38,325 bases of DNA from Synergistaceae bacterium. Its GTDB lineage: Bacteria; Synergistota; Synergistia; Synergistales; Synergistaceae. The notes beneath the pieces are model-generated. The model was not told the DNA's origin, did not search any database, and was given only the letters and a program-made list of their open reading frames with translations. Location of the stretch: assembly GCA_030523725.1 (NCBI GenBank), contig JAUNHV010000011.1, forward strand, positions 1-38,325, written 5' to 3'. Shown here in pieces: positions 13,648 through 19,126 of this stretch. The number at the start of each line of letters is the position of its first letter. The first letter of the stretch is position 1. Position numbers and translations under genes: made by a program.

Positions 13648-14217
13648 ATGAAAAAACGAGGCAATTTATTGGTAGTTTCTGGTCCGGCAGGTGTAGGGAA
13701 GGGGACGGTTTTACGTTCTGCCTTTGAAAAACTAGATGGAATGTGTTACTCTATTTCTTGTACAACAAGAGAACCTAGACCAAACTTGGATATAGATGGT
13801 ATAACCTATTATTTTCTTACCAAAGAAGATTTCGCAACAAGAATTTCACAAAATTGTTTTTTGGAATATGCGGTAGTCCATGGAAATTTTTATGGCACAC
13901 CACGTGATAAGGTTTTGCATGATTTAAATAACGGTCTTGACGTAGTTTTGGAAATAGATGTGCAGGGGGCTCTTATGGTAAAACAAAAGATGCCTGATGC
14001 AAAACTAATATTCTTTGCTCCGCCTAGCGAAGAAGAGCTAGAGAGACGTCTTCGTAGCAGGGGAACAGAGGATGAATCAACTATCAAGCTTAGGTTAAAA
14101 AATGCTCGTTGGGAAATGAATCAAATCGACAAGTATGATTACAAAGTCGTGAATGACAGTGTGACAAACGCAACAGAAAAATTTATTGATATTGTAAAAA
14201 ATATTAGGAGGTCTTAA
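13648..14217 (+). CDS. gmk: Guanylate kinase
   Basis: The protein has 189 residues. It converts GMP to GDP with ATP. The P-loop is SGPAGVGKGTV (with Gly-Lys-Gly-Thr in place of the common GKST), followed by the GMP-binding segment SCTTREPRP and DGITYYFLT, EYAVVHGNFYGTP, and LEIDVQGALMVK. It lacks a clear ribosome binding site and starts 5 bp after yicC, suggesting translational coupling. The order yicC-gmk-rpoZ-coaBC is classical. Confidence 0.97.
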   Translation: MKKRGNLLVVSGPAGVGKGTVLRSAFEKLDGMCYSISCTTREPRPNLDIDGITYYFLTKEDFATRISQNCFLEYAVVHGNFYGTPRDKVLHDLNNGLDVVLEIDVQGALMVKQKMPDAKLIFFAPPSEEELERRLRSRGTEDESTIKLRLKNARWEMNQIDKYDYKVVNDSVTNATEKFIDIVKNIRRS

Positions 14218-14218
14218 T

Positions 14219-14443
14219 ATGTTATATATGGATTTGGAACAAATTTACAAGGAACAGGGAATTTCTGACAAGTATGTATTGTCAATGGTTGTCACAGAAC
14301 GTGCTTTGCAGCTTTCTCAACTCAAAAGCACAATGCAAGATGGAACTGCAAAAGAAAAATTGATTTCACGTGCAGTAGGCGAAGCAGCACACGGTAAATT
14401 GACATACAAGATCACACCGAAAGCTAGTGTTGATGCTCACTAA
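14219..14443 (+). CDS. rpoZ: RNA polymerase omega subunit
   Basis: This 74-residue protein fits RpoZ in size and position, directly after gmk and overlapping coaBC. Conserved features include a central VTERALQL (for the usual xxRAxQL helix) followed by the acidic/basic stretch KEKLISRAVGEAAHGKL. Omega assists assembly of the core enzyme. AGGAGG lies 7 nt before the ATG at 14219; a second in-frame ATG at 14228 is too distant from it. The similarity is clear in the short RAxQL core and weak elsewhere, as is common for omega. Confidence 0.88.
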   Translation: MLYMDLEQIYKEQGISDKYVLSMVVTERALQLSQLKSTMQDGTAKEKLISRAVGEAAHGKLTYKITPKASVDAH

Positions 14444-15629
14444 AAAACATATCCTTCTTGGAATCAGCGGCGGAATAGCCGCCTATAAAATGCCTGACTT
14501 AGTTCATGCTTTGACAAAAGCTGGACACGATGTTAAGGTGATTTTAACAAAATCCGCAGAAAGTTTTGTTAGCCCTCTCGTCCTAGCTACATTAACTAAA
14601 AATAAAGTTTGGAGAGAGGAAGATTTTCTTGCTCCTAGTTACGGTTATCAAATTCCGCACATTTCGTTAGTTGAATGGGCGGATTTGTTTGTTTTGTGTC
14701 CAGCCACAGCAAATACGCTTCACGTAGCAGCTACTGGTGATGCGTCAACTTTATTAGGGTCAACTTTCGTAGCAAACACAAAGCCTGTTTTGATTTTTCC
14801 TGCCATGAATTGCAATATGCTAGCAAAAGAAACCGTGCAAAACGACATAGCAACCTTAAAGCAAAGAGGTGCAACTGTCGTTGATCCTGATGCAGGATTG
14901 TTGGCATGTGGCTATGAAGGAAAGGGAAGACTTCCCGCCAAAAATGTTCTGCTTGATTTCATAAATTATGCTTTAACTGAAAAAGATTTGAGCGGCAAAA
15001 AAATAGTTGTCACGGCAGGTCCCACACATGAATATATTGACCCTGTTCGTTTTATTTCAAATCCAAGCAGTGGCAAGATGGGGTATGCTTTAGCAATGGC
15101 AGCACGTGCAAGAGGGGCAGAAGTTACGTTAATTTCTGGTCATGTTGATATTGTTCCACCAGCGGACATACGTATAATATCAATTACTAGCGCAAAAGAA
15201 ATGCTGGACGCAACTTTGTCCTGTGCTAATGATTATAATGTTATGATAAAGGCTGCTGCTGTTGGGGATTACTCTTGCAAGCAAGTTGCTACGCAGAAGA
15301 TAAAAAGAGAATCCAAGGGTGGTTTTTCACTCCAATTAAAAGAAAACAAAGATATTGCAGCTGAGCTTGGAAAAATAAAAAAGCAAAATCAAATTTTGGT
15401 CGGCTTTGCAGCAGAAACAAACGATGTAATGCAAAATGCTAAGAAAAAACTTGCAAGCAAAAACCTTGATATGATAGTTGCAAATGACGTCACAGCACAA
15501 AATGCAGGATTTGCCACAGATACAAACACAGTCCATATTATTACAAAAAATGCTCCTGCTACCGAAGTAACTGGAACAAAATTAGAAGTTGCTAATACAA
15601 TTTTGGATAACATAAAGGCACTATTCTAA
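14433..15629 (+). CDS. coaBC: Bifunctional CoaBC: phosphopantothenoylcysteine decarboxylase/synthetase
   Basis: The protein has 398 residues and makes 4'-phosphopantetheine for coenzyme A. The N-terminal FMN-dependent decarboxylase half shows GISGGIAAYKMPDL, HISLVEWADL (with the catalytic His) and PAMNCNML. The C-terminal CTP-dependent synthetase half shows VTAGPTHEYIDPVRFISN, NPSSGKMGYALA and KIKRESKGG. The longer frame from GTG 14427 adds only two residues. ATG 14433 overlaps the last codons of rpoZ by 11 bp, which suggests coupled translation. Both halves are intact. Confidence 0.96.
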   Translation: MLTKKHILLGISGGIAAYKMPDLVHALTKAGHDVKVILTKSAESFVSPLVLATLTKNKVWREEDFLAPSYGYQIPHISLVEWADLFVLCPATANTLHVAATGDASTLLGSTFVANTKPVLIFPAMNCNMLAKETVQNDIATLKQRGATVVDPDAGLLACGYEGKGRLPAKNVLLDFINYALTEKDLSGKKIVVTAGPTHEYIDPVRFISNPSSGKMGYALAMAARARGAEVTLISGHVDIVPPADIRIISITSAKEMLDATLSCANDYNVMIKAAAVGDYSCKQVATQKIKRESKGGFSLQLKENKDIAAELGKIKKQNQILVGFAAETNDVMQNAKKKLASKNLDMIVANDVTAQNAGFATDTNTVHIITKNAPATEVTGTKLEVANTILDNIKALF

Positions 15630-15633
15630 AATA

Positions 15634-17466
15634 ATGTTTTATTACGATGTGGCTTTACCTACACCTTGGTGGACTCTCCTAACATACACTAGCGAAAAAG
15701 AAATTGAAAATTTTTGTCGTGTGGTCGTTCCCCTTGGACGAGCACATGCAACTGGTTTAGTTGTTGCCAAAAGGGACGACAGTAATCCTAATTTTAAATT
15801 AAAAAATATTGAGGAAGTTATAGACCGGACTCCACCACTTGATGAAGTAAATGCTGCCCTTATATCTTGGTTTTCTAACACTTTTTTTGTAAGCTTTGGG
15901 CTGGCTGCTAAGGCATTACTACCCAGCAAATTTTTTTCAAAAAAAGAGATTTTCGAAAAAAACAAAATTTTTCTTGATACAGGCAAAAATTTCAACACAG
16001 ATAAAAAATTCAATGTGATGCCTCTTTATTCCTTGAATAAACAAGAAAGATTTGCAAAATATCAATCCAAATTAGAAGAGCTCTGCAACAAAAGCATAGA
16101 TGAATCTGGCACAGCACTTGTAGCTTTTCCACGATTAGAACAGGCAAAAAAATTTTGGGACCAACTTCCCAGTGAGCTTAAAAAAAATGGAACATATTGG
16201 GCAGCTAATAGAGGTTTTAAGTGCTACAAAGAAACATTAGAGGGAAAATTTCGCTTTATCATCGGCACAATCTCCTGCATAATTGCCCCATTAAAAAATC
16301 TATCTCTTTGCATTGCAGAAGACGAGGCAAACCCTGCATGGTACAGCGACGAAGCACTTTACTACAATGGCAGGACATTATTGTTAGCAAAGGCAAAGAT
16401 TGCAAAGTCAGCTGTTATTTTAGGTGGTGCAATGCCTTCCGCAAATTCTTTTTTGAGCTTGAATAATTCCAGCAACTACGGCGTGAGTAAGGATAACATA
16501 AATTTTATTTCTACAAAAATTGCACAGGCAACAAAAGTTGATGGAGTTCAACTCGGACTTACCATTAGTAAGCCTTTAATTACAGAGACAAGAAGCGAGC
16601 TAAACAAGGGCAATTTTGTTTTTTGGATATTAGATAGAAAAAACTACGCTTCTGAAACAGAATGTCTAGATTGCGGATATGTTCCGACCTGCAAACGTTG
16701 CGGGACAACATTGCGGGTTATAAATGAAAATGTCTTGAGGTGTCCTTCTTGTGGCACAAAAGCCGAACATGAAAAGTTTTGCCCAAATTGTGGTGGTGTG
16801 TTCTTTCAGGCAGAAAAACCTGGGCTTTATGCTCTCTACGACGAGTTAAAAAAACATTTCAAGTCTCGCATTAGAAAATTATTTCTCGTTCAAGAGCCTG
16901 ACTTGATAGATGCAAAAGAAACACCTTTCCCAAAGGCAAACGAGCTAAAGGAAAAATTTCCATACGGTGCACTCATTCTTGGAACAAGAAAAATCTTAGA
17001 TTTAGCCGAAGAGCTTGCTCCGTCCGTTATAGGCTTTATTGATTTAGAAAACTTATACAGACAAAATGACCATAGAAGCAACTTTTTTGCATACTTCACA
17101 ATTTTTAGCTCATACTGCGAATCACAGCAACGCCCCAAAATAATAATTCAAACAACGCACCCTTTAATGGGATGGCAAAAAACATTGATTAGTGGTTACA
17201 ATTTTTTTTGGAAAGACGAGTTAAATCACCGGCGTGAATGGGAATTACCACCCTTTGCTTATGTTGTTATTATTCGAGCATCTGAAAATTTAGCAAGCAG
17301 AATAGAGCAAAAATTACAGGAGCATAATTTTGACGCTTATGCGAGTGAAGATGTAGTTTATTGCAAAACACATAAACTAGCAGAATTACGGACACAATTG
17401 GCAGAGTTTTTTAATATAAATAATAAAAACAAAGATTTTCCAAAGATTCAAATTTTTTTGGAATAA
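15634..17466 (+). CDS. priA: PriA-like primosomal protein with degenerate helicase motifs
   Basis: The protein has 610 residues, somewhat shorter than the usual 700-800. The N-terminus matches the PriA DNA-binding domain (VVVPLGRAHATGLVV, then a winged-helix-like segment ending KALLP near residue 95). The zinc module is intact, with eight cysteines in CxxC pairs at about residues 344-390. The C-terminus keeps the PriA pattern IIIQTTHPL, FFWKDELNHRREWELPPFAY. In between, the Walker A motif GxxGSGKT is absent. Walker B DEEH has become EDEANPAW, GSATPS has become GGAMPSANS, and the arginine-finger motif QVAGRAGR is missing. It therefore probably cannot hydrolyse ATP. Actinobacterial PriA homologues are known with the same kind of loss. 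It sits in PriA's usual place after coaBC, and starts 5 bp behind it. The frame is open and uninterrupted, so it is not a pseudogene. Confidence 0.85.
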   Translation: MFYYDVALPTPWWTLLTYTSEKEIENFCRVVVPLGRAHATGLVVAKRDDSNPNFKLKNIEEVIDRTPPLDEVNAALISWFSNTFFVSFGLAAKALLPSKFFSKKEIFEKNKIFLDTGKNFNTDKKFNVMPLYSLNKQERFAKYQSKLEELCNKSIDESGTALVAFPRLEQAKKFWDQLPSELKKNGTYWAANRGFKCYKETLEGKFRFIIGTISCIIAPLKNLSLCIAEDEANPAWYSDEALYYNGRTLLLAKAKIAKSAVILGGAMPSANSFLSLNNSSNYGVSKDNINFISTKIAQATKVDGVQLGLTISKPLITETRSELNKGNFVFWILDRKNYASETECLDCGYVPTCKRCGTTLRVINENVLRCPSCGTKAEHEKFCPNCGGVFFQAEKPGLYALYDELKKHFKSRIRKLFLVQEPDLIDAKETPFPKANELKEKFPYGALILGTRKILDLAEELAPSVIGFIDLENLYRQNDHRSNFFAYFTIFSSYCESQQRPKIIIQTTHPLMGWQKTLISGYNFFWKDELNHRREWELPPFAYVVIIRASENLASRIEQKLQEHNFDAYASEDVVYCKTHKLAELRTQLAEFFNINNKNKDFPKIQIFLE

Positions 17467-17483: not shown

Positions 17484-17753
17484 ATGAAAGCAATCGTTAC
17501 TGTATTAGGTAAAGACAGAGTAGGAATAATAGCCACAGTTTGCACATATTTATCTGACAGGGGTGCAAACGTGGTAGAAATTTCACAAACTGTTGTTGGT
17601 GGATATTTTGATATGTTAATGATAATTGATATAGATAATATTACTTGCAAGATAGGTGAATTAGCCGGTGGGCTCGAAGAAGTTGGAACAGATCTTGGAT
17701 TGATTATTCGCTTCCAAAGAGAAGAAATTTTTGAATCAATGCACAGAATTTAA
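17484..17753 (+). CDS. ACT domain protein (UPF0237)
   Basis: This 89-residue single ACT domain begins [20 protein letters not shown], the ligand-binding loop pattern of UPF0237. The middle [20 protein letters not shown] completes the beta-alpha-beta-beta-alpha-beta fold. ACT domains bind small molecules, mostly amino acids. A good AAGGAG lies before the ATG. Next to it is the DUF711 gene, with which this family is very often paired. The ligand is unknown. Confidence 0.9.
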
Positions 17754-17767
17754 CGCAGGATAACAAA

Positions 17768-19126
17768 ATGGTCTCACGTCAGGAAATAAGAATGACAAAC
17801 AGGATGGTGACGAACGAAAATTTAGACGTTCGCACCATCACAATGGGCATAAACATTATGGACTGTGCAGACGAGGACATAACTCGTTTTTGCGACAAGG
17901 TTTATGACAAAATAACAAAAAAGGCTGAAAAACTTGTTTCTGTTGGAGAAGAAATTTCAGCAGAATTTGGCGTTCCCGTTGTAAATAAAAGAATTTCCAT
18001 CACACCAGTTGCGATAGCTGCTTCATCTGTAAGGGCAGATTCCTTTGTGCCGATTGCCAAAGCACTTGACAGGGCAGCAAAAACTGTCGGGGTTAATTTT
18101 ATAGGTGGTTTTTCTGCCCTCGTGCAAAAAGGAATGACACGAAGCGACGAAATTTTGATAGACAGTATCCCAGAAGCGCTTTCTACAACAGATTATGTAT
18201 GTTCGTCCGTCAACCTTGGAAGCACAAAGTCTGGTATAAATATGGACGCTGTAAAAAAAATGGGGCATATAATAAAGCAAACTGCTTATCTATCTCGTGA
18301 TAATGGCTCGCTTGGCTGTGCAAAGTTCGTAGTTTTTTGCAATTCCACAAGTGACAATCCATTTATGGCCGGTGCTTATCACGGAGTTGAAGAGGCAGAC
18401 GCAGCAATCAACGTTGGTGTATCTGGCCCTGGAGTAGTGAAAACAGCCTTGGAGGAAGTTCGCGGAGAGGACTTTGAAACGCTCTGTGAAACCGTAAAAC
18501 GCACCGCTTTTAAGATAACTCGCCTTGGGCAACTTTTTGCGCAGGAGGCATCAGCAAGACTCGGTGTTCCCTTTGGCATCATAGATTTGTCCCTTGCCCC
18601 AACTCCAGCACGCGGAGACTCAATAGCAGAAATTGTGCAGGAAATGGGCATTGAGCAGGTCGGAGCACCAGGCACAACCGCTGCTATTGCAATATTAAAC
18701 GACAATGTAAAAAAAGGTGGCATTATGGCATCCTCTTACGTTGGAGGGCTTTCTGGAGCTTTTATACCAGTCAGTGAAGACAGCGGAATGATAGAAGCAG
18801 TTCAGTGCGGTTCACTAAACATTGAAAAATTGGAAGCAATGACCTGTGTTTGCTCTGTCGGAATTGATATGGTTGCGGTTCCCGGAGACACAAGCGAAAC
18901 AACAATTTCCGGCATAATAGCAGACGAAATGGCGATAGGAATGATAAATGCAAAGACAACAGCCGTACGCATAATTCCCGCCTACGGCAAAACCGTTGGA
19001 GAAAGTGTGGCATGGGGTGGACTTCTTGGCACTGCACCAATTATGTCAGTTAATAAATTTAGCTGTGAAGACTTTATCAACCGTGGAGGCAGAATTCCCG
19101 CACCGGTTCACAGCTTCAAAAACTAG
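17768..19126 (+). CDS. DUF711/UPF0210 family protein
   Basis: The protein has 452 residues and matches the UPF0210 (PFL-like) family along its length: [13 protein letters not shown], a glycine-rich middle ([28 protein letters not shown]), [28 protein letters not shown], and MVAVPGDT in the C-terminal third. The family is distantly related to pyruvate formate-lyase but has no proven activity, and I see no glycyl-radical motif. It starts 14 bp after the ACT protein. ATG 17768 follows AGGATAA; ATGs at 17792 and 17801 are possible too. The ACT-DUF711 pair is widespread in anaerobes. Confidence 0.92.

Follow-up and report, generated by a model that had tools for sequence, protein, structure and literature searches.

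The priA gene of a Synergistaceae bacterium very probably encodes a pseudohelicase derived from PriA, which serves as the usual form of PriA in the phylum Synergistota and acts as a fork-recognising scaffold that recruits DnaB without unwinding DNA. PriA restarts stalled DNA replication; it is nearly universal in bacteria, and its helicase, although conserved, is not essential in the laboratory. The gene lies in a contig stretch of 38,325 nucleotides (the window), which belongs to a 1.55 Mb genome estimated to be 100% complete and carrying one PriA-like gene. The computed basis of our reading is that the gene is single-copy, holds a conserved place and is under purifying selection, and that its product keeps the 3′-DNA-binding domain, the zinc module and the PriA fold but has lost the motor motifs. 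The original prediction is upheld in part: the protein lacks the ATPase motifs, is the sole PriA of its genome and is very likely a structural restart factor.

Results

Identity and genomic position of the gene

The open reading frame begins with ATG and encodes 610 amino acids. The neighbouring genes carry names that we assigned from sequence. The genes concerned are as follows.

13648 to 14217, plus strand: gmk, a conserved neighbour of priA
14427 to 15629, plus strand: coaBC, the upstream neighbour of priA
15634 to 17466, plus strand: the priA pseudohelicase gene, 610 amino acids, the sole PriA homologue in the genome
19154 to 20467, plus strand: the gene for the der GTPase, a conserved neighbour downstream of priA

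The coaBC stop codon lies 4 bases upstream of priA, coaBC adjoins priA in 38/41 loci, and the gene occupies the usual place of PriA after coaBC. These 41 loci all come from Synergistota, including Acetomicrobium and Pyramidobacter; the 38 have both gmk and coaBC upstream of priA, and at least two of the three loci without the gmk-coaBC-priA order end at contig edges. On the downstream side, the window has three genes in the order ACT-domain gene, DUF711/PFL gene, der. The two intervening genes (17484-19126) lie between priA and der in just 6/41 and 5/41 loci, respectively (Synergistaceae). Since der is directly 3′ of priA in many of the other loci, the pair was either inserted into the operon or lost from it.

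The Pfam family PF17764 (PriA_3primeBD) matches residues 5-97 of the protein with an E-value of 8e-17, a phmmer search of the PDB returned PriA entries exclusively, and residues 198-552 align with the helicase core of E. coli and Klebsiella PriA, which shows that the protein is a PriA homologue and more than a zinc protein. The NCBIfam PriA models match it far under their cut-offs: TIGR00595 gave 142.6 bits (cut-off 230.35), the PRK05580 models gave up to 181 bits, and the PRK14873 models gave 25-73 bits, the best being 73.3 bits, where the lowest cut-off is 812. The original prediction had proposed a search for a second, helicase-competent PriA. None was found in the genome with TIGR00595, as each of the remaining matches covers a short part of the model alone (one lies within uvrB), and a single PriA-like locus is left. 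The protein thus combines single copy number, the coaBC-priA place and the PriA fold (see below), as a PriA orthologue would.

Motor motifs and predicted structure

The former motor regions and the retained domains of the protein map to the window as follows.

15646 to 15924, plus strand: 3′-DNA-binding domain, residues 5-97 (PF17764, E-value 8e-17), with T17 at the position of E. coli D17
16027 to 16062, plus strand: former Walker A region, residues 132-143, without a P-loop; R139 at the Lys position is invariant and Y143 is conserved
16318 to 16332, plus strand: degenerate motif II, EDEA, whose third-position Glu is conserved in 85/85 proteins of the phylum
16423 to 16440, plus strand: degenerate motif III, GGAMPS by alignment (GSATPA in E. 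coli)
16663 to 16791, plus strand: cysteine-rich zinc module, C344-C386, with all eight Cys present
17098 to 17133, plus strand: former motif VI region, approximately residues 489-500; QVAGRAGR is absent and the phylum-typical WESxWRG is also lost

When the window protein was aligned with E. coli PriA, Walker A GVTGSGKT corresponded to SLNKQERF, motif II DEEH to EDEA and GSATPA to GGAMPS. Motif V has lost its Lys-Gly, QVAGRAGR (motif VI, the arginine finger) has no counterpart in this alignment, and the stretch preceding Walker A is also deleted. The claimed loss of the ATPase motifs is therefore borne out, with Walker A, DEEH, GSATP and QxxGRAGR all absent in the alignments, and the decay is deeper than had been stated. 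In most Synergistota PriA proteins, GWIDADAEAR and WESxWRG replace helicase motifs. The window protein lacks both of these phylum-typical motifs in residues 460-500 (17011-17133).

An AlphaFold2 model built with 28 sequences (pLDDT 84.6, pTM 0.83) recovered the PriA fold. The nine best PDB matches of the model are all PriA, with 8fak_H, in which E. coli PriA is bound to a replication fork together with PriB, at the top (TM 0.76 over the query), and the best non-PriA match is weaker by thirty orders of magnitude in E-value. In the model, a strand at residues 127-132 is followed by three residues and then by a helix at residues 136-152, with R139 in its first turn. Because the strand leads almost directly into the helix, the predicted structure has no room for a P-loop. 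The structure prediction suggested earlier thus returned a PriA fold with no intact Walker A.

Retained and altered domains

All eight zinc-ligand positions are Cys (C344, C347, C353, C356, C370, C373, C383 and C386), in agreement with the original prediction. The N-terminal DNA-binding domain that it described is also kept, as shown by the PF17764 match, but the pocket for the 3′ end is altered, with Thr in place of D17. In E. coli PriA, D17 contacts the 3′ base. Residue 17 (15682-15684) is Thr or Ser in 81/85 Synergistota PriA proteins, which suggests that recognition of the 3′ end may be altered. The winged-helix domain (E. coli residues 106-180) is missing, with an alignment to 18 of its 75 positions in E. 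coli, and in this region the pLDDT of the model falls to about 50 near residues 110-120. The claimed C-terminal pattern is kept in part, with 72/102 positions aligned, while the C-terminal domain itself is shortened.

Loss of the motor across Synergistota

A profile search found the motorless PriA in 176/188 Synergistota genomes and in 115/116 of those of good quality. The TIGR00595 search of the 188 genomes found no canonical PriA, and no genome had more than one match at E ≤ 1e-40. Scores were about 100-185 bits in Synergistales, and the cut-off was exceeded solely by proteins of families f11 and f12, the deepest ones, which are nevertheless without Walker A and without motifs III and VI. 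Among 85 aligned PriA proteins from 12 Synergistota families, Walker A and motifs III and VI were each found in 0/85. In contrast to this loss, the eight zinc Cys, an Arg at the Walker A Lys position (E. coli K230) and the third-position Glu of motif II (E. coli E322) were each present in 85/85. The first three positions of motif II are acidic in nearly all members, and the fourth is usually Ser, Ala, Asn or Gly. As a control, six canonical PriA proteins besides that of E. coli (from Bacillota, Pseudomonadota and Fusobacteriota) were treated by the identical method, and all had GVTGSGKT and QxxGRAGR. These six came from a search for PriA on mobile elements in a plasmid collection, in which the PriA proteins are distant (identity below 60%).

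In a quick tree with canonical PriA, supported by SH-aLRT only, 80 Synergistales proteins form one group with the f11 and f12 proteins outside it, and the window protein has diverged strongly and sits on a long branch. The simplest reading of the alignments and tree is that the motor was lost once before the phylum diversified and that more trimming followed in Synergistales. The loss is not peculiar to this genome; it is common to the whole phylum, including the deepest families (0/85 for Walker A). One genome (G155), estimated to be 9% contaminated, carries two PriA pseudohelicases (loci L190 and L191), which probably reflects a mixed assembly and not a duplication.

Selection on the gene

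Pairwise dN/dS between near relatives was 0.09-0.23 for the informative pairs; one near-identical pair carried no information, and silent sites approach saturation in the most divergent pairs. Across 28 aligned sequences, which share 26-35% identity with the window protein, 44 columns are invariant, including R139, Y143, W331, D334 and R335. Taken together, the low dN/dS, the invariant columns and the conserved synteny show that priA is a working gene here. The earlier view that it is not a pseudogene is confirmed, and the pseudogene reading is ruled out by the phylum-wide presence together with the dN/dS values.

Candidate partners

DciA is an ATP-independent DnaB loader. It was found in 160/188 Synergistota genomes, and the window genome has no Pfam match to it. 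A phylum-specific profile detected a weak candidate after mnmG in this genome (E-value 5e-4).

G000:C6:7439-7822: divergent DciA-like open reading frame (locus L214), next to mnmG

The dnaA-dnaN-recF cluster of the window genome (L213) has no dciA alongside, and from these sequences dciA seems to have diverged and moved. For a loader of the DnaC/DnaI type, the sole match over the cut-off in the window genome lies within the dnaA frame. A UvrD/PcrA-type helicase is present in the genome and could supply unwinding.

Comparison with known PriA proteins

The best precedent is the PriA pseudohelicase documented in Deinococcus-Thermus (PMC4504706). D. radiodurans PriA has Arg for the Walker A Lys and shows neither ATPase nor unwinding activity, and it still binds single-stranded DNA and forks at near-normal affinity and forms complexes with DnaB (PMC4504706). 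In E. coli PriA, K230R by itself abolishes ATPase activity, and ATPase-deficient forms, K230R included, still assemble primosomes (PMC4504706). The window protein, with R139 and a degenerate motif II, has the sequence features described for the Deinococcus type (PMC4504706). Apparent loss of the ATPase motor, the Lys-to-Arg change and a degenerate motif II are thus common to PriA of Deinococcus-Thermus and Synergistota. Retention of DNA and DnaB binding was shown in Deinococcus. Unlike the Deinococcus-Thermus protein, Synergistota PriA has no P-loop and no motifs III, V and VI, and its winged-helix domain is deleted. Eight of the nine listed controls exceed the TIGR00595 cut-off; both Deinococcota controls match the model at E ≤ 1e-40, at least one of them over the cut-off, compared to the 100-185 bits of Synergistales. 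Judged by sequence, Synergistota PriA is the more degenerate of the two.

Compared to canonical PriA (E. coli and Klebsiella; 8fak, 4nl4), the Synergistota form shares the 3′-DNA-binding domain, the helicase-lobe scaffold, the eight-Cys module, the place after coaBC and the fold. It differs from it in having no Walker A, DEEH, GSATP, QxxGRAGR or winged-helix domain and in its shortened C-terminal domain.

The original prediction pointed to a similar case in Actinobacteria. Actinobacterial PriA proteins (NCBIfam PRK14873 series) are annotated as having no detectable helicase domains. A Corynebacterium control matched TIGR00595 at E ≤ 1e-3 and not at 1e-40. Since the PRK14873 scores of the window protein are well under its PRK05580 scores, it falls outside the actinobacterial group; an actinobacterial-type PriA is ruled out by these model scores, and the motor decay in Synergistota was probably independent of the actinobacterial one. 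Our literature search gave nothing usable on helicase loss in actinobacterial PriA, only genome announcements and unrelated papers on PriA of Synergistetes, and, among openly licensed papers, no report of PriA motor loss in Synergistota. What Synergistota show is a variant, spread through the whole phylum, of a known phenomenon, and not a new kind of system.

Discussion

By analogy with the characterised PriA proteins, we infer fork binding, docking at the zinc module and DnaB recruitment for Synergistota PriA. The same role as that of D. radiodurans PriA is most likely. The 3′-DNA-binding domain and the helicase-lobe scaffold would recognise the fork or the nascent 3′ end, and the zinc module would be the docking site for the next factor. 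DnaB would then be recruited, directly or, more probably, with DciA, to forks that already expose single-stranded lagging-strand template, with no unwinding by PriA; where unwinding is needed, another helicase would have to act. A salt bridge between the invariant R139 and the invariant Glu of motif II (E231) may hold lobe 1 in place.

It is unlikely that the protein has instead acquired a new function, for example as a gap- or 3′-end-binding repair or regulatory factor, with restart left to DciA and DnaB without PriA. The loss of the ATPase, the altered 3′ pocket (D17 to Thr or Ser) and the appearance of new motifs in the phylum, GWIDADAEAR and WESxWRG among them, would fit such a change, but the fold is nearest to fork-bound PriA, the zinc module is intact in 85/85 proteins, no other PriA was found, and the Deinococcus pseudohelicase still binds forks and DnaB (PMC4504706). 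We consider it very unlikely that the gene is a decaying remnant that is nearing loss, has no important function and remains open by chance or recency. As expected of decay, the protein has neither catalytic motifs nor a winged-helix domain, and further motifs have disappeared from the window copy; against this stand its presence in 176/188 genomes and 115/116 good ones, the dN/dS of 0.09-0.23, the eight Cys in 85/85 proteins and the invariant R139, Y143, W331, D334 and R335. Scarcely credible is a rebuilt site, with Arg at the Lys position and the acidic residues of motif II, that still binds or slowly hydrolyses nucleotide: nearly all members do retain acidic residues in the first three places of motif II, and E322 is kept in 85/85, but the P-loop is absent from both sequence and model, the motif VI Arg finger is absent, and K230R alone kills the ATPase of E. 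coli PriA (PMC4504706). That the gene is a paralogue beside a complete PriA elsewhere can practically be dismissed, given one PriA-like locus in a genome estimated to be 100% complete and the same result across 188 genomes.

A single early loss of the motor via the Lys-to-Arg change in the common ancestor of Synergistota and Deinococcota, with Synergistota now the most reduced, is rather improbable; if true, a large bacterial branch would have relied on a motorless, ATP-independent restart factor ever since.

Under the preferred reading of a motorless scaffold, Synergistota are a second whole phylum without the PriA motor, in which the DNA-binding and zinc parts remain strongly selected. This natural experiment would separate the essentials of PriA, fork recognition and the handover of DnaB, from dispensable unwinding. 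It also gives structural studies a reduced PriA and points to DciA as a candidate partner. Since priA scores under the current PriA family cut-offs, automatic annotation may miss PriA in Synergistota.
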